Assembly (NCBI GenBank): GCA_012103255.1
Contig: WLXD01000001.1
Coordinates: 1,377,501-1,441,500, forward strand
Direction of reading: 5' to 3'
Length of the DNA stretch: 64,000 nucleotides
From: Acidobacteriota bacterium
Lineage (GTDB): Bacteria; Acidobacteriota; UBA890; WLXD01
Positions 10,188 to 64,000 of this stretch are shown here, piece after piece. The notes beneath the pieces were generated by a model. That model was not told where the DNA came from, ran no database searches, and saw only the letters and a program-made list of their open reading frames with translations. The translations under genes and the position numbers were made by a program. The stretch's first letter is position 1. Every line of letters begins with the position of its first letter.

Positions 10188-10526
10188 TTGCGACGTCTCG
10201 GCGAGTTCGAACAGATGCTGCTCTTCGCAGTGCTGCGTCTCGGCGACGGAGCTTACGGTACGGCGATTCGCCAGGAGATTGCTTCCCGTACCGCGCAAGA
10301 TCTCTCGCCTGGCGCGGTCTATACCGCACTCGAGCGCTTGGAGACCCGTGGCTACGTAGCGTCCTGGTTCGGTGAACCTACGCCCGAGCGTGGTGGCAAG
10401 CGCAAGCGCTTCTATCGTGTCGAGGCAGCCGGCGCCACTGCCTTGAATCGTGCCTACCGGGCTCTGCTCGCGATGGGCGAGGGGCAAGCTGAGCATCTCG
10501 ACCTCCTGGAGCGCGGCATTGAGTAG
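10188..10526 (+). CDS. PadR-family transcriptional regulator
   Basis: A 112-residue winged-helix repressor. FEQMLLFAVLRLGDGAYG is the typical PadR N-terminal helix. LSPGAVYTALERLETRGYV is the recognition helix and wing, followed by GGKRKRFYRVEAAG and a C-terminal dimerisation helix. The start is TTG at 10188 with GAGGAG 7 bases upstream, a convincing ribosome binding site. Its stop overlaps the start of the permease gene by 8 bases, so regulator and permease are translationally coupled. PadR proteins of this kind usually repress their own operon and release on ligand binding; the ligand here is unknown. The tandem repeat just upstream is the likely operator. Confidence 0.9.
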   Translation: MRRLGEFEQMLLFAVLRLGDGAYGTAIRQEIASRTAQDLSPGAVYTALERLETRGYVASWFGEPTPERGGKRKRFYRVEAAGATALNRAYRALLAMGEGQAEHLDLLERGIE

Positions 10527-13176
10527 CGCGGAGCCGCCTCGTCTGACCACGCGACTCCTCGCTCTTCTTCTCCCGGGGCGGGTCTTTGAGGCCGTCGCCG
10601 GAGACCTGGAAGAGGAATTCCGTGAGCGCCTGCGCCACACGTCGCCACGGAGAGCGGGCGCCTGGTACCGCCGCCAGGCAATCCGCTCGATCGTCACTTG
10701 CTGGCGCGGCAGCCGCCCCGCCGTTCGAACCTCCCCACGTGATCGAGGTGGTCCGTTGCAGGATCTATCGCTCGACGTTCGCTTCGCACTCCGCTCGTTC
10801 ACCCGGAATCCCGGCCTGGTGGTCCTGGTGACGTTGACTCTCGCGTTGGGCATCGGCGCCACGACTGCCATCTTCACGGTCCTGGACGCCACGCTCCTTC
10901 GGCCGCTGCCCTATTCCGAGCCCGAACGTCTCGTCGCGGTCTATGAGGAGAACGACGCCAGAGGCTGGACCTGGAACCAGGCCTCGCCCGCCAACTTCCT
11001 CAGCTGGCGCGAGCGCAGCACGACGTTGGAGGACATCACGGCGCACGGGTTCCGCGTGGGGTGGGCGTTTGCGGGGCCCGATGACCGCGCCGAGTGGCTC
11101 GACGGTGCCACGGTCTTCCACAACTTTTTCGAGGTGATGGGGGCTCGTCCTGTGCTGGGGCGCGGGTTCGTCGATGACGAGGTCTGGGGCGGTGCGAGAG
11201 TGGTCGTGATCAGCCACGGCCTTTGGCAGCGCGCCTTTGGGGGAGACCCTGAAGTCGTTGGCCAGATCATCGCCCTCGATGAGATCGAGCGCGAGATCGT
11301 GGGCGTAGCGCCACCGGGATTCGCTTTCCCTGATACCGGGATCGACGTGTGGGCGCCCTTCCGCTGGAGTCGCGAGAACGTCGAGGCGGCGTGGTTCCGC
11401 CGTGCGCATTTCATCTGGCCGGTTGGAAGATTGGCTCATGGTGTCGACGAGAGCACGGCACATGCCGAGATCCAGACGATCGCGGCGGGTTTGCAAGCCG
11501 AGTACCCCGAGACCAACGAATCGATGAGCGCCGGTGTGGTCTCCCTTCAGCGCTGGGTCGTCGGCGATACGCGTCGGCCGCTGCTGATCCTCGGGCTCGC
11601 GGTATCGGCCGTGCTCCTCGTCGCGTGCGCCAACATCGCGAACCTCCTGTTGGCGCGGGCCACGGGACGTCGTCAGGAGTTGGCAGTACGCAGCGCACTG
11701 GGCGCGGGCCGGGCGCGACTGGTTCGCCAGTTGCTCACCGAGAGCGTGTGTCTGGCGGCGCTCGGTGGCGCCGCCGGCGTCGGGGTGGCCGCGTTGATGA
11801 CGCGTGGTCTGGTGTTGCTCGCTGGGGAGGCGATTCCGCCGACCAGTCCGGTCACCATGGATGCCCGTGTGATGGGTTTCGCGTTGTTCATCACTCTTGC
11901 GACTGGCCTCGGTTTCGGTCTCTTCCCGTCACTTCAGCTCGGTTGGGCACGGTTATCGGAGGTCATGAACGAGTCATCGCGCAGCGGGTCAGCTGACCCG
12001 AGGCCTGCGCGGGCGCGCAACCTGCTGGTAGTCGCCGAGGTCGCGCTGGCGGTCGTGCTCGTGGCTGGCGCCGGACTGATGCTACGGAGCCTGGACGCGC
12101 TCTACGCGGTCGATCCCGGGTTTTCGCTCGACAATCTCGTGACGGCGGAGTTTGAGCTGCCGGGCTCTCGATACGGCGATCAGGTGGCGGTGGAAACGTT
12201 CTTCGACGAACTCGTGGATCGACTTGTCGCGACGCCCGGGGTCGTGGGAGTCAGCGCCACAGACACACTTGCGCTCGAAGGAACGCGGTGGACAAGCGAC
12301 TTGTTCATCGATGGTCGTCCACCGGCCGACACGCCGTACATCTTCAATCGTCGGATCGTGGACCATCGTTACTTCACGACGCTCGGGGTTCCTGTGCTCC
12401 GAGGCCGGTCGTTTACCGCGGCCGATGGCCCGGACACGCCCGACGTCATCATCATCAATGAAACGCTGGCCGGCCAGGTGTTCCCGGGCGAAGACCCCGT
12501 GGGGGAACGGATCCGCTTCGGGGACGATGACGACGACCCTTGGCTCACGGTCGTGGGGGTTGTTGGATCAGAGCGAGTCGAGGGTCTAGACGCGAACCCG
12601 TGGGGAGAGATCTACCTCACCACCCGGCAGGAGCCGATCTGGTACCTCAACTTGCTCGTTCGCGGGGCGGCAGGAGGGCAGGCCGAGGCCGCAGTTCAGC
12701 GCGAACTCGCTGCACTCGACCCCCTGGTGCCGATCATTCGCTTCCGTCCGTTCGAGGAAATCGTCAGCGGCTCGCTCAGCATGGAGCGGCTGCTCACCAC
12801 CCTGCTCACGGCCTTCGCCGCGGTCGCCTTGTTGCTCGCGGCCATGGGGCTCTACGGCGTGCTGGCCTACAGCGTTGCCCAGCGAACCCGAGAGATCGGC
12901 ATCCGAGTTGCGCTGGGCGCGCGCGGCGACGATGTGTTGCGCATCGTCGTGAAGCGGGCGTTAGTGCTCGTCGTTACGGGCGGTGCATTGGGAGCGGCCG
13001 CTTATGGCGCCGTCGCCAGTACCTTCAGGGCGCTGCTGTTCGAGGTCTCCCCGGGAGACCCGCTGACGCTCGGCGGGGTGCTGCTGGTGATGCTGGCCAC
13101 GGGCTTCGCGGCCGCCTATCTCCCGGCACGTAGAGCCACCCGCGTCGACCCGGTCGAGGCTTTGCGCTCGGAATAG
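10519..13176 (+). CDS. Duplicated MacB/FtsX-type orphan permease (ADOP type), copy 1
   Basis: About 885 residues. The first 75 form the short soluble prefix of these proteins (LLALLLPGRVFEAVAGDLEEE and on). After it come two MacB-like halves, each a periplasmic domain followed by an FtsX domain. The first helix begins near LVTLTLALGIGATTAIFTVL; TREIGIRVALGARGDDVLRI is the last FtsX motif, and the end PARRATRVDPVEALRSE is diagnostic. I chose the TTG at 10519 because GGAG lies 7 bases upstream and it overlaps the padR stop; the open frame extends back to 10450. No ABC ATPase gene is nearby, as usual for this family. Function is probably efflux or envelope export, or mechanotransmission; the substrate is unknown. 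Confidence 0.85.
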   Translation: MSSAEPPRLTTRLLALLLPGRVFEAVAGDLEEEFRERLRHTSPRRAGAWYRRQAIRSIVTCWRGSRPAVRTSPRDRGGPLQDLSLDVRFALRSFTRNPGLVVLVTLTLALGIGATTAIFTVLDATLLRPLPYSEPERLVAVYEENDARGWTWNQASPANFLSWRERSTTLEDITAHGFRVGWAFAGPDDRAEWLDGATVFHNFFEVMGARPVLGRGFVDDEVWGGARVVVISHGLWQRAFGGDPEVVGQIIALDEIEREIVGVAPPGFAFPDTGIDVWAPFRWSRENVEAAWFRRAHFIWPVGRLAHGVDESTAHAEIQTIAAGLQAEYPETNESMSAGVVSLQRWVVGDTRRPLLILGLAVSAVLLVACANIANLLLARATGRRQELAVRSALGAGRARLVRQLLTESVCLAALGGAAGVGVAALMTRGLVLLAGEAIPPTSPVTMDARVMGFALFITLATGLGFGLFPSLQLGWARLSEVMNESSRSGSADPRPARARNLLVVAEVALAVVLVAGAGLMLRSLDALYAVDPGFSLDNLVTAEFELPGSRYGDQVAVETFFDELVDRLVATPGVVGVSATDTLALEGTRWTSDLFIDGRPPADTPYIFNRRIVDHRYFTTLGVPVLRGRSFTAADGPDTPDVIIINETLAGQVFPGEDPVGERIRFGDDDDDPWLTVVGVVGSERVEGLDANPWGEIYLTTRQEPIWYLNLLVRGAAGGQAEAAVQRELAALDPLVPIIRFRPFEEIVSGSLSMERLLTTLLTAFAAVALLLAAMGLYGVLAYSVAQRTREIGIRVALGARGDDVLRIVVKRALVLVVTGGALGAAAYGAVASTFRALLFEVSPGDPLTLGGVLLVMLATGFAAAYLPARRATRVDPVEALRSE

Positions 13177-19216: not shown

Positions 19217-21937
19217 CTAGTCGGATCTCAGGGCGACGGCGGGATCGACTGCGGAGGCCCGCCTCGCTGGCAGCAGGCCGGCGAGCAAGGCGAACAGTCC
19301 GAGAACAACCGCGACTGTCGTCAGCGTCACGGGGTCAGTCGCCGAAACCTCGTGCAAGAGGCTGCGGATGTACCGCGTCAGTCCGATGGTCGCCACGATT
19401 CCAAGAGCGATTCCGAGCAACAGCATCCGGCTGGTCTGACGAAGAACCATCGCCACAACGTTCTGTGCGGTGGCTCCCAATGCCATGCGTAGCCCGATTT
19501 CGCGCGTGCGCCGAGCCACGCTGAACGCGATCAGGCCGTAGATGCCCACGCAGCCCAGGATGAGCGCCACCGCGGCGAATCCCGTGATCAGAGCCATCGA
19601 GAAACGCTGCTGCTCCAAGGTGCGGTCCATGAACTCTGTGAGCGGTCCGATTCGATAGAGGGCGAGCTCGGCATCGGAGTCGCGCACCAGTTCCCGCAGC
19701 GTCGAGGTGAACGCCGTGGGATCGCCGGCGGTCTTGACCATCAGGTACATCGAACTGACGGGGTACTGTTCGAACGGTACATAGATGAACGGTTCCGGGT
19801 CCCGGTCGAGAGTCCATTGGCGCGCATCCTGTACGACGCCGACGATCGTGCGCTCCGTATCGCGCTCCTGCGAGTCGAGCGAGATGAAGAGCTGGAGGCG
19901 CTCCCCGACAGGGTCGCCGTCGGGCCAATACAACCGAGCGGCGGCCTCGTTGATGATCGCCACACGCTCGCCAGCCCAGTCGTCCCGCGCAGTGAAGCCG
20001 CGGCCGCGAGCCATTGGCGTGCTCAGTACGTCGAAGTAGTTGGCGCTTACCGGCTGAACGTACGCCGACGGATTGTTGCCGTCCTCCGACTCCGGTCGCC
20101 CCGGGAGGCCAAAGCTCCCACCGACCGAACCGCCGGCGAACGGGAGCAGCAATACGGAGCCGGCCGCGTCGACGCCGGGGCTTGCTTCGATTCGGTCCAG
20201 CAGGCTGGCGAAGTAGTTCTGATGCGACTCGCTGCCGATGTATTCGTCGCTGAGTGCCAGTCGGGCCGCCAGGATCCCGTCAGGATCCAGCCCCGGGTCC
20301 TCACCGAGTAGGTTGAGGAAACTGGTGATCAGGAGTCCGGCGCCGGCCATCAGCACTAGCGCCACTGCGACCTGCCCGACTACCAGCAGAGAACGGATGC
20401 GCTCGGCACCCTGCGCAGTGTTGCCTCGCGTGCTTCGTAGCCCCTCCGCGCTCCGACGTCGGCGTAGCGCTGGGATTGCGCCGCAGAGCGCGCCGGAGGC
20501 CAGCGTGGCAACGGTTGCGAAAGTCAGCGTCCAGGGATCGAGTCGTACCTCGCCGAGCCGTGGAATCGAGGCCGGTGCCAGAGCGACCAGGGCTCGCGTA
20601 CCCCAGTCCGCCAGGATCAGTCCGACGATGCCACCGAGGGTGGCCAGGAGCATGGCCTCGGTCAGGAGCAACCGAACGATCCGTCCACGGCCCGCACCCA
20701 GCGCTGCGCGCAAGGCGAGCTCTTCTTCGCGTGTTGTGGCGCGAGCCACCAAGAGGCCGGCGACATTGGCAACCGCTACCAGGAGAACGAAGCCGCCAGC
20801 TGCGAGCATCGCGTACAACGACACCTGAACCTCGGCGATCGTGTCCTCGTGCAACGAGCGGACCCAGGCGTTCACACCGTCGTTGGTATCTGGGTAGTCG
20901 GCCGCGAGGCTTTCGCTGATCCGGGTCAGGTCGGCATTCGCCTCCGCGAACGATATGCCCGGCCGCAGTCGGGTCAGCGCGCTCATGTTGTAGCTGCCGC
21001 GGTTGTGCTGCGTGATGTCGAGGCGGAGCATCGAGAGCACCTGAGTGGTGTCCCGTTGCGGCATGCCGAAACCGGGCTCGAGGACTCCGATCACCTCCCA
21101 GTCAGTGCCGTCGAGACGGATGTGAGTTCCCACGACACCGCGATCCCCGCCGAACACGTTCTGCCATAGGTCGTAGCTGAGCATCACCCGAGGCGGTGCG
21201 CCCACCGCGTCGTCGTTGCGTTCGAACGGTCTGCCGTGCAAGGCCCTGATCCGCAGCAGGTCGCTGTATTCGTAGGACACGCGCCCGCCGACGAGGCTGT
21301 CGGGTTGATCGACACCAGAGAGGGTTGTTCGCCAGCCACGGAACAGACCGACGCCCTCGAGAGTGGTGTTCATCGCGGCCCAGTCGGTCGCGTTCACCGC
21401 ACCCACGGCGCCGCGCTCGCCGGGGGACTCGCTACTGACCTGCCAGATGAAGGCCAGGCTCCCCGACTCGGGGAAGGGAAGTGGCTGAAGAGCGATGGCG
21501 TTGACCGCGGTGAATACAGCTGTGGTGGCGCCGATGCCCAATGCGAGCGTGGCGATCACGACTGTTGAGAACGCCGGGGCGCGGCGGAGGCTGCGGATGG
21601 CGAACAGCAGATCTTCACGAAGACTGGTGAGCATGCGAGACAGTTTCCGGGGTGGGGAGTCGGGGCGACGGGCGGCTGTAAAGGGCGTGGGCTGGAGAAT
21701 GCCGGCGTGCTCCAGGCGGGCGCGAATGGACTCGGTTACGAGATCGCGCGCAACAGGAACCATCGCGGCAACCACGCCGCGCAGTCCGCGCAGGTGCCAT
21801 CGAGCCTCCAAGTTGTCCTCGACGGCGATCGCAAGGTCCGTTGCGAAGCGCGCGCGGAACTCTTGCGGGTAGAGGCGCAGGCCGATTCGGTAGAGCCGCG
21901 CCCCGAGCCGAACGCTTGTGGGCCGCGGTGCGGTCAT
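19217..21937 (-). CDS. Duplicated MacB/FtsX-type orphan permease (ADOP type), copy 2
   Basis: A 906-residue membrane protein. Residues 1-100 are a soluble prefix (RIGLRLYPQEFRARFATDL and on). The permease begins at LREDLLFAIRSLRRAP and its first helix is VIATLALGIGATTAVFTAV. Two periplasmic MacB-like domains alternate with two FtsX domains; the family ending is PARRASAVDPAVALRSD. The ATG overlaps the upstream padR stop by 4 bases, so the pair is translationally coupled. No ATPase gene is near. Sequence differs clearly from copy 1, so this is an old paralogue and not a recent duplication. Confidence 0.87.
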   Translation of the reverse strand: MTAPRPTSVRLGARLYRIGLRLYPQEFRARFATDLAIAVEDNLEARWHLRGLRGVVAAMVPVARDLVTESIRARLEHAGILQPTPFTAARRPDSPPRKLSRMLTSLREDLLFAIRSLRRAPAFSTVVIATLALGIGATTAVFTAVNAIALQPLPFPESGSLAFIWQVSSESPGERGAVGAVNATDWAAMNTTLEGVGLFRGWRTTLSGVDQPDSLVGGRVSYEYSDLLRIRALHGRPFERNDDAVGAPPRVMLSYDLWQNVFGGDRGVVGTHIRLDGTDWEVIGVLEPGFGMPQRDTTQVLSMLRLDITQHNRGSYNMSALTRLRPGISFAEANADLTRISESLAADYPDTNDGVNAWVRSLHEDTIAEVQVSLYAMLAAGGFVLLVAVANVAGLLVARATTREEELALRAALGAGRGRIVRLLLTEAMLLATLGGIVGLILADWGTRALVALAPASIPRLGEVRLDPWTLTFATVATLASGALCGAIPALRRRRSAEGLRSTRGNTAQGAERIRSLLVVGQVAVALVLMAGAGLLITSFLNLLGEDPGLDPDGILAARLALSDEYIGSESHQNYFASLLDRIEASPGVDAAGSVLLLPFAGGSVGGSFGLPGRPESEDGNNPSAYVQPVSANYFDVLSTPMARGRGFTARDDWAGERVAIINEAAARLYWPDGDPVGERLQLFISLDSQERDTERTIVGVVQDARQWTLDRDPEPFIYVPFEQYPVSSMYLMVKTAGDPTAFTSTLRELVRDSDAELALYRIGPLTEFMDRTLEQQRFSMALITGFAAVALILGCVGIYGLIAFSVARRTREIGLRMALGATAQNVVAMVLRQTSRMLLLGIALGIVATIGLTRYIRSLLHEVSATDPVTLTTVAVVLGLFALLAGLLPARRASAVDPAVALRSD

Positions 21938-27717: not shown

Positions 27718-30387
27718 CTAGTTCCGAAGCGTCTCGACCGGATCGGCTGCCGAGGCCTTCCACGCTGGGCCGAGGCTGGCAACGCACGCGACCACAAGCG
27801 TGCCGATCGCCACCGCGCCGAGCACTAGCGGGTCGACACCGTTCGCGGCGAAGAGCAGGCTGCTGAGCCAGCGACTTGTGGCGTAGCTTCCGAGAATGCC
27901 GATCGCGAGCCCGAATGCCGTTGGCGTAATGGCCGACCTCAGAACGGAGGTGAGCAGGCGAGTCCGCGTGGCGCCCAAAGCTGCTCGCACGCCGAGCTCG
28001 CGCCGTCGCTGGGCTACCGCGTGGGCGATGACCGCATAGACGCCCGCAGCGCCGAGAGCGGCGGCGAGGACTGCGAACATGCCGAGGAGCAGCAGGACGA
28101 AGCGCGGCTGCCAGGAGAGGTTGCCGACGCGATCATCGAGGGCCTCGACGTTGTAGATATTCATCTTGCGCCCGAGTTGCCAGACGGCTCGCTGCACCTC
28201 GGCGCTGAGCGCCGTGGGCTCACCTTCGGTGCGCGCCACGAGGTTCATGATGCCGATGGGGTGCTGCAGGAAGGGCAGATAGACAATCGGCATCGGCGCC
28301 GGATCCTGGCCGGCGGGCCGCACATTGCCGACAACCCCAACGATCTCGCGAGACACGCCGCCGAGTCCGGGCATCGGGAAGGCCATGCCCGTCGTGTCTG
28401 GTACGAGTGTCTCGCCCAGTGACGACGTCGCCGGCAGGAAGCGTTCTTGGAACGCCCGGTTGACTACTACCGTTGGTGCGCCGTCGGCCTCGTCCGTCTG
28501 GTCCAGCGCGCGGCCGTCGACAATCGGGATACCCATCGTCTCGAAATAGCCCGGGAGTACGAGACGAAAAACAACTCGCTGGGCCGTTTCCGGGTCCGGT
28601 ATCTCGTCTGCCAGATGGAAACCGATTGTGGAGTTCGGAAACTCCGGCGGCACGAAATTCACCCCACTTGCGGTCTGCACGCCGGGGATCTCCGTGATCG
28701 CGGCACGTGCCTCTTCGAAGTGTGTTCGCCACACCTCGCGATCCATCCCCACCCGTATCGAGTTCCGCACGGTGAGAACACGATCGGCATCGTAGCCGAG
28801 GTGGATCGCGCTGAGCTCGCGCACACTCTGCAGCGTGGTGAGTGCAGCGACCACCAGGATCACGGCGATAGCTGCCTCGGCGACTACCAGGCCATGTCGC
28901 ATCACGGTGGACCGCGCGCCAGCAAGGTTGCGGCCACCGGCGCGGAGCGCCGACTCCAGCGCGCCTGGGCGCACCATTCGAGTCGGCGCCAAGCCCGCCA
29001 GCATCCCTGTGACGAGCGCCGCGCCAATGGCATAGAGAAGAACGGTCGTATCGATACTCACGTCGTCCAGAAACGGAACGGCGGCGGCGCCGCCCACACT
29101 CGAAGATCCGCCGCCGACTCCAGGAATCATTCGGAGCAGCCAGGGGAGGGCGAGTGCGCCCACGAGGATGCCCACCACTGCGCCACCGAGGCCGAGCAGC
29201 ACGCCTTCCGCGACGAGCTGCCGGACGATCCGCGTCCGTCCGGCGCCGAGCGCGCATCGGAGCGCAACCTCGCTGGACCGTTGAACAGCTTGTCCAAGTC
29301 CCAGGTTGGCGACATTGGCGCACGCCAGGAGCAGTACCAGTGCTACTGCCAGAAGCATGAAACCCAACACGGGGGCGTATGCACCAACGGCGTTGTCGCG
29401 GATTGGCACCACCGAGACGCCCCAACCGGTGTGTGTTGCCGGGAACTGCTCTTCGCGCGCGAGCGCCTGAACTTCCAGCTCCTCGGTCACGCTAGCCACG
29501 GTCTCGCCTTCGGCGAGCCTGCCGTACATGAGCATGGCGCGGCTTTGCCGATTCCCGGTTTGCCCTACGAACGTCGTCGGTATCCACAGACCGGGCTGAA
29601 CGGGCAGCTGATGGGTGATGTAGAAGTCGGCGGGCATGACACCGATGACGACGTATTCCTGGTCATCGAGCACGACGCTCCGACCGACCGCTTGCGGATC
29701 GCCCTCGAGCGCTTGCAGCCAGATCTCATGGCTCACGATCACCACGCGATCGGCGGCGTCTTCCCCCGGAGCGAAGGTGCGACCGTAGGCAGCATCGACG
29801 CCCAGGACATCGAAGAAGTTGGGCGTCACCGCATGCGTGAGCGGCACCAGCGGTTCGTCGCGCTCGCTGAAGCCCAGACTGTTGTTGGAGAGTCCGGCGA
29901 TCCCCGAGAGCGTGGTCGTGGAGTCGCGGATCTCCAGATAGTCGGCAGGCGGCGTGCCGGCCCGTCCAAGCCCGCGTCGTGCTCCGTCGCTCCAGATCAC
30001 CACGAGGTCCTCGGGGTCTTCGTACGGAAGAGGGTGCAGCAAGACGCCGTTCACGACGCTGAAGATCGCAGTGTTGGCACCGATTCCGAGGCCGAAAGCC
30101 AACACCGCCGCGGCAACATATGACGGTCGGCGAGCCAGGGCGCGGGCCGCGTAGCGCACGTCCTGGCCCGTGCCGCGGAGAGCAGCTGCGAAGGGGGCCA
30201 GGATTCCCGCTCCAGCGCGCAGGCGACACGCATCCTCGATGGCGTCTAGCCATCGCCGCGCGACGCGGCCGTTGGCCGACGTCATCTCGGCATGCCACTC
30301 GCGAAGCCAGCGTTCGCGGCGAGAAAGTGGAACGAAGCGGGCTAGCAGTCGCAGCAACAACGGAGCTCGTTCAGCCACGAGCATCAC
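27718..30387 (-). CDS. Duplicated MacB/FtsX-type orphan permease (ADOP type), copy 3
   Basis: An 889-residue protein. The N-terminal prefix (LARFVPLSRRERWLREWHAEM) is the short soluble domain typical of this group. The permease begins near VRYAARALARRPSYVAAAVL with LAFGLGIGANTAIFSVVNGV as first helix. RRELGVRAALGATRTRLLTS is the last FtsX motif, and the end is ASAADPVETLRN. The start is GTG at 30387 or ATG at 30384, overlapping the padR 3' end by 14-17 bases. No ATPase gene is adjacent. Substrate unknown. Confidence 0.87.
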   Translation of the reverse strand: MMLVAERAPLLLRLLARFVPLSRRERWLREWHAEMTSANGRVARRWLDAIEDACRLRAGAGILAPFAAALRGTGQDVRYAARALARRPSYVAAAVLAFGLGIGANTAIFSVVNGVLLHPLPYEDPEDLVVIWSDGARRGLGRAGTPPADYLEIRDSTTTLSGIAGLSNNSLGFSERDEPLVPLTHAVTPNFFDVLGVDAAYGRTFAPGEDAADRVVIVSHEIWLQALEGDPQAVGRSVVLDDQEYVVIGVMPADFYITHQLPVQPGLWIPTTFVGQTGNRQSRAMLMYGRLAEGETVASVTEELEVQALAREEQFPATHTGWGVSVVPIRDNAVGAYAPVLGFMLLAVALVLLLACANVANLGLGQAVQRSSEVALRCALGAGRTRIVRQLVAEGVLLGLGGAVVGILVGALALPWLLRMIPGVGGGSSSVGGAAAVPFLDDVSIDTTVLLYAIGAALVTGMLAGLAPTRMVRPGALESALRAGGRNLAGARSTVMRHGLVVAEAAIAVILVVAALTTLQSVRELSAIHLGYDADRVLTVRNSIRVGMDREVWRTHFEEARAAITEIPGVQTASGVNFVPPEFPNSTIGFHLADEIPDPETAQRVVFRLVLPGYFETMGIPIVDGRALDQTDEADGAPTVVVNRAFQERFLPATSSLGETLVPDTTGMAFPMPGLGGVSREIVGVVGNVRPAGQDPAPMPIVYLPFLQHPIGIMNLVARTEGEPTALSAEVQRAVWQLGRKMNIYNVEALDDRVGNLSWQPRFVLLLLGMFAVLAAALGAAGVYAVIAHAVAQRRRELGVRAALGATRTRLLTSVLRSAITPTAFGLAIGILGSYATSRWLSSLLFAANGVDPLVLGAVAIGTLVVACVASLGPAWKASAADPVETLRN

Positions 30388-43738: not shown

Positions 43739-45496
43739 ATGCGGCAGGCGTTCGGCGCGGTATCGCTCGCTCTTCTGGCGATAGCTCTTTGGAATGGCGG
43801 GGTCCAGGTCGGGCCAGATCTGATCCTCCACGGTGCGCGCGTCTACACGATGGACGAGTCGCGGCCGTGGGCCAGTGCGGTCGCGATTCAAAGTGGCGTA
43901 GTTGCGGCCGTTGGCGACGATGCGGAGGTCCTGGCTCTTGCCGAAGAAGGAACGATCGTTCGAGACCTTGGCGGCCAGATGATCCTTCCGGGTTTCCACG
44001 ACGTGCACGTGCACGCCGTGGAGGCTGGCATCAATGCCGACCTTTGTTTCTTTCCAAGTTCCGCGTCGCTCCGTCGCTACGAGCAGATCGCCCGGGCCTG
44101 CGGCGATGATGCCCCTGACGCGGACTGGGTGCTCGGCGCGGGCGTGTTCGTCGCTGATCTTGTTGGTGGCTCCGAGGCTCCCATCGATGTGCTCGATCGC
44201 GCGATCCCCGATCGTCCCGCACTAATCCTCGATGATCTGGGACACGGCGCGTGGGCGAACACAGCAGCGCTTCGCGCGGCCGGCTACGAGGAAAGTTCCG
44301 TCGACCCGCGCGGAGGAATACTGCACCGTGACTCCGTGGGAGAACTCTCGGGCATCGTCTTCGAGAACGCACAGCAACGGCTGCGTGACGCCGCCTGGCC
44401 GCCGAATCGGCAGACCCGGAATCTCGCCTATTCGAGCCTTCTGGCCAGCCTCGAGGAACTTAATCGGAACGGCATTACATCGGTTAGCGACGCGGGCGGC
44501 TACTGGACGCGAGCGCATCACACCGCATGGGCCCGAGCGCTGCGGCGCGGGAAGCTCACCGTACGGGCAACGAACGCGCTCTACGTCTATCCGGACCTCG
44601 GCCTCGACGCTCAGCTCAAACGCCTGCGGACGCTCTACTCCAATCGTGCCGGGTCGTTGCTGCGTTTTAACACCGCAAAGATCTATGTCGATGGGATTCT
44701 CGATCTAGGCACCTCGTTGCTGGCCGAGCCGTACCTGCGTTCGCCAGCGGGCTTGGATCTGCCCGATCACGGATTCGAGTATTTCGGCTCCGATTTGCTC
44801 GATCGCTATGCGGCCGAACTCACAGCGGCGGGATTCGACCTGCACTTCCACGCGACCGGCGACGCGGGCGTGGCCCAGGCGCTCGATGCTATCGAGGCGG
44901 CCGGCACTGCGGTCCGGGCAGAGACGCCATCGCACCGCGTCACGCATCTCTATTTGGTCGAGGAAGCGGACCGATTGCGGTTTGCCTCACTGGGCGTCGC
45001 GGCAGATCTTCAGTTCTCACCGGACGCGATCGACCCTCGCTACGCGCGTTCACTGGAGCGGATCATCGGGCGCCAGCGGGCCGCGGCTCTGCTCCCCGCG
45101 CGGTCGATACAGGGCGCAGGGGCGACTACCGTGCTGAGCAGCGACTGGGACGCGGGTCCTTTGTCGCCACTCGGCACGATTCAGCGGGCCCTCACGCGAC
45201 GCGGCGAGGGGGTGCGCCGGCTCGAGGACGCGATCCGCATGTTGACGCTCGATGCCGCACGCGTTCTTGGACAAGACGAGATCACGGGTTCTATCGAGGT
45301 TGGCAAGCAGGCCGACCTGGTGGTGCTTGATAGGGATCTGTTCGCCCAGACACCGGCTCGGATCGGCCGGGCGCGCGTGTTGCTCACTCTGTTGGCTGGC
45401 CGCGCTGTGTTCGACGGCGCGAACGTTCTGTCGCCGGTGCCTGCGGGTCAGTCATCGCGGAGTGCGTCCATGGGATCGATCGAAGCGGCTCGCTGA
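43739..45496 (+). CDS. Amidohydrolase family protein (YtcJ-like)
   Basis: A 585-residue enzyme. An N-terminal hydrophobic stretch suggests an export signal. ADLILHGARVYTMD-type beta sandwich appears as DLILHGARVYTMDESRPWA. LPGFHDVHVHAVEAG carries the metal-binding HxH. RFNTAKIYVDGILDLGTS holds the likely lysine, and HFHATGDAGVAQALDA and SSDWDAGPLSPLGTI the later histidine and Asp. The end returns to the beta sandwich (GSIEVGKQADLVVLDRD). It hydrolyses an amide, often N-substituted formamide. AGGAG lies 6 bases before the ATG. Its last 49 bases overlap the 3' end of the kinase-permease gene on the other strand. Confidence 0.88.
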   Translation: MRQAFGAVSLALLAIALWNGGVQVGPDLILHGARVYTMDESRPWASAVAIQSGVVAAVGDDAEVLALAEEGTIVRDLGGQMILPGFHDVHVHAVEAGINADLCFFPSSASLRRYEQIARACGDDAPDADWVLGAGVFVADLVGGSEAPIDVLDRAIPDRPALILDDLGHGAWANTAALRAAGYEESSVDPRGGILHRDSVGELSGIVFENAQQRLRDAAWPPNRQTRNLAYSSLLASLEELNRNGITSVSDAGGYWTRAHHTAWARALRRGKLTVRATNALYVYPDLGLDAQLKRLRTLYSNRAGSLLRFNTAKIYVDGILDLGTSLLAEPYLRSPAGLDLPDHGFEYFGSDLLDRYAAELTAAGFDLHFHATGDAGVAQALDAIEAAGTAVRAETPSHRVTHLYLVEEADRLRFASLGVAADLQFSPDAIDPRYARSLERIIGRQRAAALLPARSIQGAGATTVLSSDWDAGPLSPLGTIQRALTRRGEGVRRLEDAIRMLTLDAARVLGQDEITGSIEVGKQADLVVLDRDLFAQTPARIGRARVLLTLLAGRAVFDGANVLSPVPAGQSSRSASMGSIEAAR

Positions 45497-48400
45497 GCCG
45501 GCAGACTGCACGCAACCATCGCGACCAGGATCAGCAGGGCAGCGACGCTGGAGTACGTCACGATGTCGAATCCTTCAACCTCGAAGAGCAGGTTGCTCAG
45601 GCTCTGACGCAAGAAGTTACGCCCCCACGACCCCAAGAGCGACTCCCACCAGTGCCGTCGCGGTCCCCTGGCCGACGACCATGCGGAGGACCGAGCCGGG
45701 GGAGGCGCCGAGTGCCTGGCGTAATCCGATCTCTCGAGTTCGGCACTCGACGCTGTAGGCCATCATGCCGTAGATGCCGATCGCGCCGAGGGTCATGGCA
45801 ATCGCGGCGAATGTGCCGAGCAGACTCATTGTGAACCGACGGCTGCCGAAGCCGTTGGCGATCAGGCGATCAAAGCGGTTGATGCCGAACACCGGCAAGT
45901 CGGCATCGAGTTCGCGGACCATTCCACGGATGTCGGGCATGACGTCGAGCGGATCTCCGTCCGATCGGATCGTCAACGCCAGGCTCGTTCGCCCCGTCTG
46001 AGAGTGGCTGAAGTAGGCAGTGGGCGGGACCCGGCGGTCGGGACCGTGTTCCCGAACGTCTTCAGCTAGACCGAGGATCTCCCACTCGCTGCCCGGGCCC
46101 GCCGTGATGGCGCGACCGATGGGATTTTCGTCCTCGAACAACTGTCGGGCAAACTCCGCATTCACGATGATCCCGGCGGCTGTGTCTGGTTGGTCCAGTG
46201 TGCTGAAGTTCCTTCCGAGGCGGACGCTGAGGCCGAGCGTTTCGAAGTAGTGCGGATCAATGGTTCGTGATTCCACAAACGTCGCCTTGCGGTCGGGATT
46301 CCCTACCGGCCACATCGCGGAGAAGTTGCTAAACGTATTCGTGAACGGGACGGCGCTGGCGAGCCCCACACTTTCCACCGACGGTAGTTCGGCCACGCGG
46401 TCGCGCAGTGCGTTGAAGAAGTCGATCCGGTCGGAGGCCTCGGGATAGTCACTGATGGGTAGCGAGATTCTGACCGTGCCGAGTCGCTCCGGGTCGACTC
46501 CGACGTCAACCTGGCTCAGCCGCCAGAAGCTCTTCAGCATGAGGCCAGCGCCGATCACGAGGATCAACGCAACGGCAACCTGCAGCGCTACCAGAACTTC
46601 GCGCAGGCGGCGCTTGTTGCCCGTCTGGCCGCGCGTGCTCTCGCCCAGTGCGGCGGAGGCGTCTCCCGAGCGCTGCCAGATCACGGGCACCAACCCTACG
46701 AGGAAGCCTGTGCCAACCGCGATGGCGAGGCTGAAGAGCAGCACATCGCTGTCGATGCCGATCGCGCCCGATCTTGGTATCGCTCCGCCGAAGTTACTGA
46801 GCAGGAACTGAAGACTCCCGTAGGCGCACGCGATTCCCACAGCGGCGCCCACCAGCGACACCATCAACGACTCGGCGAGGAAGTGCCAGAGGATCCGCGC
46901 ACGTGTCGCACCAAGGGCGGACCTCACTGCCAGTTCGCGGTGACGCGCTTCGGCGCGGGCCAGCATCAAATTGACGACATTCGCGCAGGCCACCAACAGG
47001 ACCATGCCGACCGCCCCCCAGAGCATGTACAGAGGTCGCCGTTGGCGGTCCCCGACGATGAAGTCCGAGTACGGCTCCACGTCGATCCCCTTGTTGGCGA
47101 TCTGATCAGGATAGAGGTTCACGATTTCGCCGTAGAGTGTTCTGAGTTCTGCCAGGGCGGACTCAACGCTCGCGCCGGTTGCGAGGCGAGCCAACGTGAG
47201 GTTCGCGTTCTGGTTGCGGCTGGGCAGGTTCTCGGGGTCCCATGCGAATGGGATATATATCGACGTGGAGCTGCCCTCTCGGAACTCCTGCGGCGCCACT
47301 CCGATGATCGTGCGAACTCGCGAGTCCATGCGGATGGTCTCGCCGATGACATCGGAGCGACCCTCGTAGCGGTCGCGCCACAGCTGATCGGAAATCACCG
47401 CGACAAGTTCGCTGCCGAAGGTGTCTTCCGTCGTTCCGATGAATCGGCCCAGTTGCGGCTCGGCGCCCAGCATTTCGAAGTAGCCGGCGTTGACGCGCAT
47501 CGTTCGCAATCGGACCGGTTCGCCAGAACCCGAAACTGCTGCCATGCCGCTCGAATAGGCGACCATCGACTGGAGTTGAGTGGTCTGTTCTCGCAGGTCG
47601 AGGAAGTTCGGAGTGGAAATCGGGCAGCAGGTGCGGCCTTCGTATTGCGACGAAATCCGAACGAGCAGCTCCGGCTCTGGATAGGGCAGGGGGCGCAGCA
47701 CCACCGCGTTCACCACGGAGAAGATCGCCGTATTGGCGCCGATGCCGAGGGCCAGCGTGACGATCGCGACGATCGCAAAGAGCGGGCGCCGCATCAGCGA
47801 ACGCACGGAGAAGCGGAGATCTTCGATGAGGTTGCGCATGATGTTGGGCCGGGGATTGGAGGCACGGGCGAGCGCCCAGGTTGTGATCGCTTGGAAGGCC
47901 TGCTGCGAAGCTGAGGCCGATGAATCGGAACTGGGCGCCGTGGTGGTGGCGAGTTCGAGACGACGCATGAACTCAGACGCGCTTCGCGGACGATCGGCGG
48001 GATCGAGGGCCATGCCCGCCGCGACCACCGATGCGATCGCCTCGGGAATTCCGGGCGCGAGGCGGCGTAGGTCGGGCGGCACCGAGTCGAAGCGCCGCTT
48101 TACAACCTCGGTGGTGCTGCCACCGCTGAACGGGGTCCGTCCGGTCAGCATCTCGAAGGCGACGCAGGCGAGCGAGTAAACGTCGGAGCGCGCGTCGAGG
48201 CTCAATTCGGCCCGCGCCTGCTCTGGACTCACATATGCCGGGGTCCCAGCCGCGATATCCACTTCCGGCGGGCGATCCCATTCGCGCACGGCCTCGATGT
48301 GGATCGCGCGCGACAGCCCGAAGTCGGCTACATAAGCATGCTCGCCAGCGAGGAGAACGTTCTCGGGCTTGATGTCGCAGTGCAGGATCTCTTCACCGTG

Positions 48401-48991
48401 GGCGTAGTCGATCGCCGCGGCCATGTCGCGGAGTACTCCGAGTGCCTCTCGCAGAGGAAGTGGCCCCTGATCGAGGCGCTCGCGTAGCGAGCCGTCCTCA
48501 ATGAAGGGCGTCACGTAATACGGCTGATCTTCGATCGTGCCGGCGTCGAGGAGCGGGAGGACGTTCGGATGCTGGAGCCGGCCGGTGTTGCGGGTCTCGG
48601 CAATGAAGCGCTCGGAGAGTCCCGCGATGGCTTCGCGCGACACCATCTTGATCGCCACGCGGCGACCGAAGCGCAGGTCGCGGGCCAGATAGACGGTTCC
48701 CATTGCACCCTCCCCGACTACGCGGTCGACGACGTAGCGCTCGTCCAGACTACTGCCAACGACTCCGGAGTCAGGCGCGGCCGACTCCACCTCGAAGATG
48801 GCATCGAATTCCGCGCCGAGCGCGTCGAGCATGAGCTCGCGCGTTTTCGGCGACGGGTAGGGATGCTTGCCGTTGACCAGATCGGACCAGTGCCCGCGCG
48901 AGATACCGATTCGTAGAGCCCAGGCGTTCTGGCTCCGCTTGCTGCGGGCCAGAATGTCGCCGAGTTCGTCAGTCTTGAGTCGTACGCGCAT
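45448..48991 (-). CDS. HTH - Ser/Thr kinase - orphan permease fusion (copy 4), frameshifted near its end
   Basis: One open frame of 1124 codons joins three modules. Residues 1-62 are an XRE-like HTH (AWALRIGISRGHWSDLVNGK). Residues 85-345 are a protein kinase: VGEGAMGTVYLA loop, K115, HCDIKPENVLL with catalytic D206, DFG 223-225 and VSPEQ. Residues 385 onward form an ADOP-type permease (DLRFSVRSLMRRPLF, LALGIGANTAIFSVVN). The kinase has Cys instead of Arg before the catalytic Asp. Near 45622-45626 one extra base shifts the frame; the true end continues NFLRQSLSNLLFEVE to ASIDPMDALRDD at 45448. ATG 48991 has GGAAGG upstream. Function is unknown; kinase control of the permease is inference. Confidence 0.85.
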
Positions 48992-49112
48992 GGCCTTCCC
49001 GGTGAGTGTTCACCAGAAGATACGCCGCCCGTCCGCAATGGGTTTGGGTGATTCGCGCACCACGCCCCTCAAAGTGTTCGGAGGCGTTCGGAATGGGGCC
49101 GGAAGGGCTGTT

Positions 49113-49751
49113 CTAGCCTTTCGAGTCGGCCCGGAGCTTGTGTCCGCGATTGCGGTAAAGCCCTTTGTCTACCTGAGCTGACATCGCCGCGGTGTCGAGC
49201 TCGTGGTCCAGGAAAGCATCGACTTGAGCCACGAACTGCTCGGGTTCGGCGAGTGCCTCGCCGTACTTCACTTCGATCATGTCGATGTACTCGCGATTTC
49301 GGACGAGGAATCGACACTGCACGAGGTGCTTCAGGTAGTAGTCCTTCGTGGCCTGGTCATCGAGCGGGTTCTCTTCGCCGCGGCGCTGGAGCATCTTGTT
49401 CTGGGATGCGACGACCTCGTCGAGGTCCCGACGCATGAAGAGGATCTGGTAGTAGTTGTCGCTCGGCAGGTCCTTGAGCAGGTGGGAAATCACCTTGAGG
49501 ACTTTGCCGCGAGCCTGGGCGACGTAGCTCTTGTCGGTCTCGTTTTCGAGATCCTTCACGCGCTCGTACTCGTAGTACCCCTTCGGGTTGTCTTCATCGG
49601 CGGTGCGTTCTTCGTCGGTCAGAATCGAGAGACCGCCTGCTTCGAGCATGCGCATCATCATCGACGTGCCCGAGCGCGGTAGACCCGACACGATGATCAC
49701 GGGTTCGCCGTACTTGCGGCGGCGTTGGGCGCGTTTCCAAGCCTTGAACAA
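49113..49751 (-). CDS. Sulfotransferase-like P-loop protein
   Basis: A 212-residue protein with the sulfotransferase 5'-phosphosulfate loop GLPRSGTSMMM right after a beta strand (EPVIIVS), and a later SxxxN-type 3'-phosphate region (MRRDLDEVVASQNKML). The family transfers sulfate from PAPS to sugars, lipids or proteins; no acceptor is known here. I chose TTG at 49751 because GGAG lies 7 bases upstream and a good -10 (TACAAT) stands at 49787-49792. ATG at 49820 and a longer frame to 49859 are alternatives. Confidence 0.78.
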   Translation of the reverse strand: MFKAWKRAQRRRKYGEPVIIVSGLPRSGTSMMMRMLEAGGLSILTDEERTADEDNPKGYYEYERVKDLENETDKSYVAQARGKVLKVISHLLKDLPSDNYYQILFMRRDLDEVVASQNKMLQRRGEENPLDDQATKDYYLKHLVQCRFLVRNREYIDMIEVKYGEALAEPEQFVAQVDAFLDHELDTAAMSAQVDKGLYRNRGHKLRADSKG

Positions 49752-49786
49752 CGGACTACTCCCACGGAGAAAAAGGCGGCTCCGGG

Positions 49787-49792
49787 ATTGTA
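49787..49792 (-). promoter_or_regulatory. -10 element of the sulfotransferase-like gene
   Basis: TACAAT on the minus strand, about 35 bases before the TTG at 49751. The resulting transcript would start near 49780, downstream of the ATG at 49820, which supports the shorter protein. Confidence 0.4.
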
Positions 49793-49901
49793 GCAACGCC
49801 TGAGACCCTGCGAGCGCCATTCGCGTCCGGAAATGACCATGCCGTCGCGGCGACCGCATTCGCCTTGTGGCGACAGCGCGAGCGGCCCAAGGCGGCCGGG
49901 T

Positions 49902-49907
49902 TACACT
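49902..49907 (+). promoter_or_regulatory. -10-like hexamer for a leaderless start of the FIST gene
   Basis: TACACT ends 6 bases before the ATG at 49914. No ribosome binding site lies between them, and no strong -35 box is seen. Confidence 0.38.
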
Positions 49908-49913
49908 CCGCTC

Positions 49914-51109
<1,196 letters not shown>

Positions 51110-51113
<4 letters not shown>

Positions 51114-61262: not shown

Positions 61263-61745
61263 CTAGTTGGTTGGTTCGAAGAAGCGCATGAGTCGCTCGA
61301 GCGGCTCCTTGAGCACGGGCTGAACGGCAGAGTTGGAGCCAAGCCGAACGACGTTGCCGACGAATCGGTTGTGCTCGCGCAGCCAGGCCACCGCGGTTAC
61401 GCCGGAGTCCGGCCGGAACACACCGTCTTCGCGGAGCTCTCGCAGTCGGGCCAGAGGGCCGTCCACGAGCGCGTCAAGAGTCGGTACGGCGGTCTCGGCT
61501 GTGGCCGCGTCGCTTACCCCGTCGAGCGTCTGATTGATCTGTTCGAACACCGTCGTCCAGTTGGCGAGCAGTGCTTCGTCGTCGGCCAGTAGCGCATCGA
61601 GATCCAACGATGCGCTCGCCGCTGGGACCGCTTCTGCGCGGGCGTTCTCGGGTGCGACGCTGTCTTCGGACGCCGGACCGCAGCTCATCGCCAGGAGCGC
61701 GAGCAGGCAGGCTGCGAACCCCACTGATGGTCTCTTGGTCGCCAT
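61263..61745 (-). CDS. Putative lipoprotein
   Basis: A 160-residue protein whose start at 61745 gives MATKRPSVGFAACLLALLAM followed by SCGP, a lipobox with Cys near residue 22. The mature part is helical (WTTVFEQINQTLDGVSD, ARLRELREDGVF). I recognise no family. It ends 11 bases before the OmpA-type gene start and is probably the first gene of that operon. Confidence 0.72.
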   Translation of the reverse strand: MATKRPSVGFAACLLALLAMSCGPASEDSVAPENARAEAVPAASASLDLDALLADDEALLANWTTVFEQINQTLDGVSDAATAETAVPTLDALVDGPLARLRELREDGVFRPDSGVTAVAWLREHNRFVGNVVRLGSNSAVQPVLKEPLERLMRFFEPTN

Positions 61746-61863
61746 GGCGGCCCCCGTTGGTGTCGAAAGCTGGGGCCGAGCGGCCCCTCGATATGGAATG
61801 CCCATACCGGAGATTCCGTTACAGCCGCATTTTGCTTCCGGCCGTGTCACACTCCCTTTCGCT

Positions 61864-64000
61864 ATGAGCGGGCCGAGGCGAGACGAGGACGAAGAGCGCA
61901 AGTCAGGGTCGGAGTCCGCCGCAGGCGACCCGGTGGCGCACATCCTCCAGCGGCGGGCCGACGCTGCCGATTTCACCCCCTTCGGGGTGGGCGAAGTGGT
62001 GGCCGATCGCTACCGTGTCGAGCGCCTCGTGGGTCGCGGCGGCAGCGGTCAGGTTTGGGAAGTTCATGATCTCGAACTCGACCAGCGCATCGCGCTCAAG
62101 ACGCTATCTAGCCGGCCGGGTCGTCAGATTCGCCATGCCCAGGCCCTGAAACACGAGGTTCAGCTGGCTCGGCGCGTGGCCCACAGGAACGTGTGCCGAG
62201 TGTTCGACATCGTCCCAGTGGCCGAGCATGACGGGGAGCCCGTCTGGGCCGTGACCATGGAGTTCCTCGCGGGCGAGTCTCTGGCCGAGCACGTTCGGCG
62301 AACCGGACCATTGCCCTCCGCCACGGTTATCGATTTCGCGACCCAGTTGGCGGCTGGCATGGCAGCCGCTCACGACATCGGGGTAATCCATCGGGATTTG
62401 AAGCCCGAGAACATCATGCTCGTGAAGGCCGGCGAGGCCACGCGTGTCGTGATCGCGGACTTCGGTCTGGCTGCGGGTGAAGAGCCGGAGGAAGAGCGCG
62501 ACGTTCGTCTTGCAGGAAGCCCAATGACCATCGCGCCCGAACAGATCGAGGGCAACTCGGTGGGGCCGGCCGCTGATGTGTACGCGTGCGGCGTCGTTTG
62601 CTTCCACATGCTGACGGCCGACTGGCCGTTCCGTGGCCCAACGCCCCTGGCGACTGCTCTGGAGCGAATCGAGAGCCCACCACCCCGGCCGGTCGCCCAG
62701 AGTTCTGGCGTGCCGGCGGCGCTCGACGATTTGGTTGTCCGGTGCATGGCGCGCGACCCAGCGTCCCGCCCGGTGAATGGTGGCGCGCTGCGCGGCCAGC
62801 TCGAGGCGCTAGCGGGGTCGGACTTCAGTCCCGCTATCCCGAACATTTCTCCAGCCAAACGAGTTGCGGGTTTCCTCGTGCTCGCAGGGTTGGCCGCGTT
62901 CGCACTCGGCGATGGCGTGGGAGAATTGTCGAGCGCCGTACCGGTGAGAGGCGAGGTGCCCACGAGCGCCGGCGCTCCAGGTCGTCCGGGGATCGCGCTT
63001 GTGGGATTTGCCGCCGAAGGCGGGGACTGGGACTGGGTGGCCACCGCTCTTGCCGATCGCTTCGCGGCAGTGCTCGGGGTTGGCGACGAGCTCCGGGTCA
63101 TATCGCCCTCCCGAACTCAGCAGCTCGCCGTCGATCTCGGAGCGTCGGCATCGACGCCATCAGCGCGCGTGTCCGGCCTCATTGGCAGTCAAACCGGCGT
63201 GCAGTGGAATCTCGGAGGGAGCTACACCATTCGTGAGAGCGAGAACGGACGTCCGGAGTTGCACCTGGACCTGGTACTTCGAGGGCCACGCGCGCGTGTT
63301 GTGTCCTCTCGTTTTACCGGCCCCATCGGCGACCTGCCGTCGATCGCCCGTCAAGGCAGCGAGTGGGTCCGCGCCGAGCTCCGATTGTCGAGACCCGCGT
63401 CCGGCGAGATCGCCGGAACCCTTGCTGAGTTCGCCGCCGCGCCCGAGGCCGTTCGTCGTCATGCACTCGGCAAACAGGCCATGCGCCGGCAGGACTATGC
63501 GGCCGCGCGCGAACACTTCGAAGCCGCCGCCGCCGAGGAGCCCGGACACCCGCTCGTGCTCCTCGGGCTTGCGGAGGCGTGGTCAGCAGCCGGCCGCCCG
63601 GGCCCGGCGCGCGAGGCGGCGGAGGCCTCGCTCATCGGAATCGAACGCTTGGACCGCGCACGGCAACTCGAAGTACGAGGCCGCCACGCCATCGTTACGA
63701 ATCAGTGGGATGTGGCAGAGCAGACGTACGCCGCGTTGTTCGAGTTCTACCCCGATGATCTCGAATACGGCCTCCTGCTGGCAGAGTCGCAGGATCGTGG
63801 CGCGCGACTGGAGGCCGCACTCGAAACTCTCGGCCGACTGCGACAACTTCCGGCGCCATCCGGCCAGGATCCGCGGATTGATCTCACCGAAGCATGGGTT
63901 CGCTTCCATCAAGGTGACCATGTTGGCGCAGTGCCTTTCACTGAGCGCGCCGAGATCTCGGCCCGGCGACTGGGGCAACGCTCGCAGGTTGCACGTGCCC
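61864..64000 (+). CDS. Serine/threonine protein kinase with transmembrane segment and TPRs, partial
   Basis: At least 712 residues; the gene runs past the window end. Kinase domain residues 49-310: YRVERLVGRGGSGQVW, K79, IHRDLKPENIMLV (HRD 176-178), DFG 199-201, and TIAPEQ. A membrane helix (RVAGFLVLAGLAAFALG) lies at about 333-349. Beyond it a sensor-like domain (from GRPGIALVGFAAEGGDWDW, with WNLGGSYTI) and TPR-like helices follow (AMRRQDYAAAREHFEAAA). Unlike the fused kinase at 45448-48991 this one has a normal HRD. ATG at 61864 has no ribosome binding site; divergent from the lipoprotein gene. Confidence 0.92.
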   Translation, partial: MSGPRRDEDEERKSGSESAAGDPVAHILQRRADAADFTPFGVGEVVADRYRVERLVGRGGSGQVWEVHDLELDQRIALKTLSSRPGRQIRHAQALKHEVQLARRVAHRNVCRVFDIVPVAEHDGEPVWAVTMEFLAGESLAEHVRRTGPLPSATVIDFATQLAAGMAAAHDIGVIHRDLKPENIMLVKAGEATRVVIADFGLAAGEEPEEERDVRLAGSPMTIAPEQIEGNSVGPAADVYACGVVCFHMLTADWPFRGPTPLATALERIESPPPRPVAQSSGVPAALDDLVVRCMARDPASRPVNGGALRGQLEALAGSDFSPAIPNISPAKRVAGFLVLAGLAAFALGDGVGELSSAVPVRGEVPTSAGAPGRPGIALVGFAAEGGDWDWVATALADRFAAVLGVGDELRVISPSRTQQLAVDLGASASTPSARVSGLIGSQTGVQWNLGGSYTIRESENGRPELHLDLVLRGPRARVVSSRFTGPIGDLPSIARQGSEWVRAELRLSRPASGEIAGTLAEFAAAPEAVRRHALGKQAMRRQDYAAAREHFEAAAAEEPGHPLVLLGLAEAWSAAGRPGPAREAAEASLIGIERLDRARQLEVRGRHAIVTNQWDVAEQTYAALFEFYPDDLEYGLLLAESQDRGARLEAALETLGRLRQLPAPSGQDPRIDLTEAWVRFHQGDHVGAVPFTERAEISARRLGQRSQVARA

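Follow-up and report, generated by a model that had tools for sequence, protein, structure and literature searches.

The window analysed here, a stretch of 64,000 nucleotides, carries a gene in which an XRE/Cro-type helix-turn-helix (HTH), a PknB-type protein kinase and an ADOP permease are joined in a single chain. This HTH-kinase-permease fusion is real and conserved. Each of its parts belongs to a known family, and they are arranged as follows:

45448–48991, minus strand: whole HTH-kinase-ADOP fusion gene, C-terminal out-of-frame part included (delimited with two intact orthologues)
45617–48991, minus strand: open reading frame (ORF) present as read, 1,124 aa plus TAA, start ATG at 48991
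48782–48991, minus strand: XRE/Cro-type HTH head, residues 1–70 (HTH_31, HTH_19 and HTH_26 matches in family members; AF2)
47987–48736, minus strand: PknB-type protein kinase domain, residues 86–335 (Pfam; nearest is M. tuberculosis PknB by profile and fold)
47834–47956, minus strand: kinase-permease linker, residues 346–386 (alignment of relatives)
45620–47830, minus strand: ADOP permease, residues 388–1124, with MacB_PCD and FtsX and a shortened second half (profiles; AF2)

Profile searches of the window ORF with Pfam and NCBIfam models returned Pkinase over residues 86–335 (E 1.2e-39), the Pfam domains MacB_PCD (E 6e-32) and FtsX (E 5.5e-21), and the NCBIfam ADOP model TIGR03434 over residues 388–1124 (775.6 bits; cut-off 622.3). 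The Pfam profile ABC_tran had no match in the fusion chain, which thus contains no ATPase domain. The protein resembles ADOPs (TIGR03434) in its two MacB_PCD and FtsX halves and in having no ATPase in the chain, and ordinary ADOPs are its neighbours both in the window and in the genome. The three other ADOPs of the window (10450–13176, 19217–21937 and 27718–30387) are, as the earlier note described, without a kinase and each adjoined by a PadR gene. Whereas these begin with a short N-terminal stretch, the N-terminus of the fusion consists of the HTH and the kinase; no PadR gene adjoins it, its neighbours being sulfotransferase and amidohydrolase genes. The host genome (4.8 Mb) holds about 150 ADOP-like permease genes (154 matches), roughly 7% of its length, and all 67 places of it that were scored against TIGR03434 exceeded the cut-off; of its 41 kinase matches, only one belongs to an ADOP fusion. 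Another acidobacterial metagenome-assembled genome was reported to carry 102 orphan permeases (PMC10564751).

The surroundings of the fusion gene are partly shared within the genus:

49113–49859, minus strand: sulfotransferase-like gene, upstream neighbour, conserved in the genus

A gene for a FIST-domain sensor protein (49833–51113, plus strand), a DUF1499 gene and a sulfotransferase-like gene are conserved in the vicinity of the fusion within the genus. On the other side, an amidohydrolase gene (43739–45496, plus strand) lies between the fusion and VTT/DedA genes, overlapping the 3' end of the fusion by 49 bp on the opposite strand; it is absent from this place in both sister genomes.

The earlier note had read the frame as free of stops from the HTH through the kinase into a full ADOP. 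HTH, kinase and ADOP do share one minus-strand frame from the ATG at 48991, but this frame stops after residue 1124, and the description "full permease" is rejected for the window copy on account of the frame break:

45617–45619, minus strand: TAA stop arising from one additional base, an A, that both orthologues lack (alignment with orthologues)
45448–45616, minus strand: remaining C-terminal permease coding part, in another frame (translation and orthologue alignment)

The interval 45448–48991 comprises 3,544 bases, which is no multiple of 3, and the expected permease C-terminus, FLRQSLSNLLFEVEGFD...DPMDALRDD, is encoded out of frame in the 169 bases after the ORF, down to 45448, so that about 56 last residues fall in another frame than the window ORF. 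TIGR03434 was matched only over positions 1–747 of 803 in the open frame, from which the complete C-terminus of the duplicated MacB_PCD-FtsX halves, present in both orthologues, is absent; as read, the product would end within membrane helix 7 of 8 (helices numbered from the intact-orthologue model). The break is probably either an assembly error or a (recent) mutation, and the window copy may accordingly be read wrongly or inactive. It is conceivable, with the chances leaning against it, that this copy is a decaying pseudogene even if the family is functional, given that the one-base break removes the last membrane helix. The lesion is a single one, however: the rest of the gene keeps its coding composition and all catalytic residues, the promoter element described below is intact, and an error of sequencing or assembly is just as possible.

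Intact orthologues of 1,185 and 1,181 aa, 66% and 64% identical to the window protein and with the same domain order, are encoded in two sister genomes:

L019:3613–7170, plus strand: intact orthologue
L020:537–4082, minus strand: intact orthologue

Their neighbours match those of the window, with a sulfotransferase gene upstream, FIST and DUF1499 genes beyond, and VTT/DedA and HAD genes downstream. These and the other related records are metagenome-assembled genomes, the sister ones being labelled Acidobacteriota. Within the genus, HTH, kinase and permease each show a dN much lower than dS, a signature of purifying selection on all parts of the fusion. Other Acidobacteriota had been considered as possible carriers of the order HTH-kinase-MacB_PCD-FtsX; the arrangement was found in only one of the 210 genera sampled. 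Among 396 Acidobacteriota genomes it was confined to the genus of the window, in a phylum-wide search that scored few candidates per genome and may have missed rarer distant cases.

A second group of carriers is found in Gemmatimonadota, where a scan of genome contigs recovered at least 18 members with the three-part protein, up to seven per genome. Full-length or near-full-length members occur in G396 (seven copies), G397, G398, G399, G400, G445, G488, G521 and G540, and further ones appear in G401, G706 and G707. The distribution is patchy, with 8 of 298 sampled Gemmatimonadota genomes passing E 1e-95. All ORFs with such an HTH and a kinase were fused to a permease, save those cut by contig ends or N runs, and this excludes the possibility, raised earlier, that homologues always keep kinase and permease as separate genes; likewise, all relatives read through from residue 345 to 385 without a stop. 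Conversely, among the ORFs collected, none with a kinase but without such an HTH was fused to a permease, and HTH-less kinase-permease fusions were not seen with queries that carried the HTH and few candidates scored per genome. The Gemmatimonadota members share 51–64% identity with the window protein in the HTH, 43–57% in the kinase and 24–41% in the permease. Because the identities of HTH and kinase exceed that of the permease, the cytoplasmic head formed by these two is, by sequence comparison, the conserved part of the family. Chance fusion is ruled out by this conservation in two phyla under purifying selection.

The kinase residues K115, D206 and DFG 223–225 are located exactly where the earlier note placed them. 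Together with E132, N211 and E257 they are invariant in the 21 aligned members, as is R334, and the window kinase also shows H204-C205-D206 and P256-E257. HCD replaces HRD in 20 of the 21 members, while HRD is present in 49 of 51 control kinases; the only control with HCD is L080, which is also the nearest unfused kinase. The arginine of HRD, a criterion for Hanks-type kinases, is thus absent from 20 of 21 members. Because non-RD kinases, which do without this arginine, are known and the residue is no defining feature, the Hanks-type membership of the fusion kinase stands. AF2 modelling with 20 family sequences as input gave a PknB-like fold for this part. In the phylogenetic tree, 20 of the kinase halves are united in one supported clade (99/90), and the long-branched G396g and the unfused L080 kinase branch off just outside it. 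We consider it highly probable that the fusion kinase is active. The L080 kinase ends in a membrane helix and belongs to an operon-like Gemmatimonadota locus (L080:1270–3808, plus strand) that also encodes a MacB/LolD-type ATPase and an NtrC-type response regulator. The window itself contains a second PknB-type kinase, with TPR repeats (61534–64000, plus strand), which runs off the right end, measures 1,235 aa in the genome and has no permease fusion in the part seen.

The permease halves, set against the single kinase clade, are scattered among unfused ADOPs, and a single clade was rejected for them (AU p = 1.8e-5). Because the kinase halves form one clade and the permease halves do not, one regulatory head is, on these trees, combined with different permeases; these combinations may have come about through fusion on several occasions, through exchange or because the head was lost. 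In the AF2 model of the intact full-length orthologue, HTH and kinase are followed by a MacB-like permease that has eight helices and two large soluble domains; the mean pLDDT is 80 and the pTM 0.57, at which the placement of the domains is unsure. Fold matches of the permease model include MacB 5gko, and both permease halves keep the FtsX-type RE(L/I)xxRxALGA segment.

What the permease does is where the main rival arises, namely that the fusion is a regulated transporter: a MacB/LolD-type ATPase from elsewhere would drive the permease, transport would be the output, and kinase and HTH would tune its activity and amount. The FtsX-type segment in both halves fits this reading, as do the ATPase and response regulator genes beside the unfused HCD kinase of L080 and a MacB/LolD-type ABC ATPase gene that follows the fusion of another locus at a distance of 49 bp (L107:4348–5067, minus strand), although the latter would fit a sensor equally well. 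The L107 gene is the only ATPase gene seen beside a member: none adjoins the fusion of the window, and none was recognised by eye beside the other listed members. The permease is moreover the least conserved part and varies between members, as would be expected of an input module more than of a fixed output. On balance we regard a regulated transporter as unlikely, while the alternative role, that the permease acts as a sensor, has somewhat less than an even chance of being correct.

The HTH head is modelled as a five-helix fold (AF2, 20 family sequences; block pLDDT about 78–88), with helices at residues 7–16, 21–28, 32–39, 48–58 and 62–65 and the recognition helix SRGHWSDLV. HTH_31 matched residues 16–61 of the window copy with 21.1 bits, below the cut-off of 27, and an orthologue with 28.2 bits, above it; 11 of 19 members matched at E ≤ 0.001. 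A phmmer search of the PDB with the HTH alone returned no match. In the family alignment, Q21, G33 and H34 are invariant and S36 is near-invariant.

Upstream of the fusion gene, in the 121-bp gap that separates it from the sulfotransferase gene, lies a short conserved element, followed by a possible promoter motif:

49071–49091, minus strand: conserved element CCGAACGCCTCCGAACACTTT, direct repeat of CGAAC 10 bp apart, 79 bp before the start codon
49017–49022, minus strand: −10-like TATCTT, 48 nt downstream of the element (weak, picked after looking)

Aligned upstream regions gave the 21-base consensus YCGAAC-N5-CGAACACTTT, a direct repeat with a 10-bp period, which precedes 20 of the 21 family genes at about 50–165 bp (52–163 bp) from the start codon. 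The 8-mer AAGTGTTC is common to 18 of 21 upstream regions, whereas in shuffled sequence no 8-mer was shared by more than 5. Of the matrix hits in 335 kb of loci, the top 22 (scores of at least 19.2) were all located before family genes, three of them before members outside the matrix training; the best score away from family genes was 18.0, and one family site (G396b) scored lower, at 14.3. When the matrix was built from Gemmatimonadota only, the window site was the top hit in the 1.65 Mb scanned of its own genome, with a score of 29.0, the runner-up (19.9; C1:895334) lying inside an ORF, and no comparable intergenic site was found elsewhere in these 1.65 Mb. A matrix made from the three Acidobacteriota sites alone recovered the expected site as best match in 15 of 18 Gemmatimonadota loci. 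Palindromic operators were also searched for upstream of family genes, and none was found.

The idea of DNA binding at the membrane, put forward in the earlier note, gains strong indirect support from this conserved element, seen only before family genes, and the HTH is likely to be its reader. Changes in the two are related: an altered or missing second half-site is commoner among members in which K or S replaces R at HTH residue 32 (Fisher p = 0.011, uncorrected for relatedness), and G396c, the only member without the element, also has the most changed recognition helix. TATCTT-like sequences lie 46–48 or 36–37 nt downstream of the element in several genes, spacings about one helical turn apart; noticed after the fact, this is only suggestive of an activator site. 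A role of the GAAC boxes as an ECF-sigma −35 is not favoured, because the −10-like TATCTT is 36–48 nt away instead of 16–18 and because there is no comparable intergenic site in the 1.65 Mb.

XRE proteins bind palindromes more often than direct repeats, and their folds can also act as protein-protein modules. The HTH might therefore be a docking or dimerisation domain, with the element read by a separate, unlinked regulator, the more so as XRE proteins do not usually target direct repeats and HTH-DNA binding is here a prediction. This reading seems rather improbable to us: the element is conserved across two phyla only before genes encoding this HTH, the invariant and near-invariant residues lie within the HTH, and changes in the HTH track those in the element.

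Separate translation of the permease from the internal ATG at 47839, with kinase and permease working apart, is very unlikely. This ATG is conserved within the genus (MRNL/MQNL), but a methionine at this place is not general among the Gemmatimonadota members, and inspection of the sequence bore out the earlier observation that no Shine-Dalgarno-like run precedes it. The kinase-permease linker is unconserved in sequence and 31–67 aa long in relatives. An origin of the fusion in faulty assembly or binning, as might be suspected where related records are metagenome-assembled genomes, is ruled out to near certainty by the recurrence of the same order in three genomes of the genus, with common neighbours, and in at least nine Gemmatimonadota genomes.

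We consider the fusion, with some confidence, to be a membrane-anchored, self-regulating sensor-kinase-transcription factor. The MacB-like ADOP permease would serve as the inner-membrane anchor of the protein, and its two large domains would lie in the periplasm. MacB-like permeases have a cytoplasmic N-terminus, and HTH and kinase would therefore be inside the cell, hanging from the permease N-terminus. A change in the periplasmic or membrane part would be relayed to the kinase, which, through autophosphorylation or phosphorylation of a partner, would alter the HTH head or other targets. The HTH would bind YCGAAC-N5-CGAACACTTT ahead of its own gene and set its expression, by either activation or repression. 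We see the link between HTH and element as the strongest step of this mechanism and the role of the permease as the weakest. Points against this reading are that G396c has no element, that the HTH of the window copy scores below the Pfam cut-off, that this copy is frame-broken and that the element could be read by another regulator. More tentatively, the fusion could form a one-protein pathway from periplasm to promoter, in which phosphorylation at the membrane decides whether the HTH binds its own element and the head is plugged onto many ADOPs as interchangeable sensors.

Several known systems share individual traits with the fusion. PknB/Stk1-type receptor kinases (Hanks-type) resemble it in kinase fold and residues and in tying a cytoplasmic kinase to a membrane protein with an outside domain, but their one-helix anchor and PASTA repeats are replaced here by an eight-helix MacB-like permease, HCD stands in place of HRD and an HTH precedes the kinase. 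The membrane-bound one-component regulators ToxR and CadC have a winged-helix head and a single membrane helix, with neither kinase nor permease; they share with the fusion a DNA-binding head (putative in the fusion) and a membrane sensor in one chain, to which the fusion adds kinase and permease, its head not being winged-helix. The permease of the MacB tripartite exporter (PDB 5gko) has the fold of the permease part, but MacB carries its own ATPase, whose place in the fusion chain is taken by HTH and kinase. In the Bce module, an FtsX-type permease forms a complex with a sensor kinase (transporter BceAB and histidine kinase BceS; PMC10314905). The likeness is one of working principle only, since that module consists of separate proteins and includes an ATPase subunit, a histidine kinase and a response regulator, and the kinase parts are not homologous; no genes for a Bce-type ABC ATPase, histidine kinase or response regulator adjoin the fusion in the window.

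In the open-access literature we found no description of the three-part chain, the two-phylum family, the HCD signature, the exchange of permeases or the operator-like element, nor, under "permease prefix domain" and kinase with a MacB-like core, any description of the architecture. By uniting a Hanks-type kinase and a transcription factor in one membrane chain, such a protein would offer a compact alternative to two-component systems. That one conserved head carries a variety of permeases points to the permease as the variable input. ADOP permeases are hugely expanded in Acidobacteriota, and in the fusion one of them is joined to a kinase and a putative DNA-binding head, behind a conserved and precisely mapped promoter element; the question of whether such permeases sense rather than transport therefore becomes testable. 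If true, the reading from periplasm to promoter would give a functional handle on ADOPs, which are present in dozens to more than 100 copies in such genomes.
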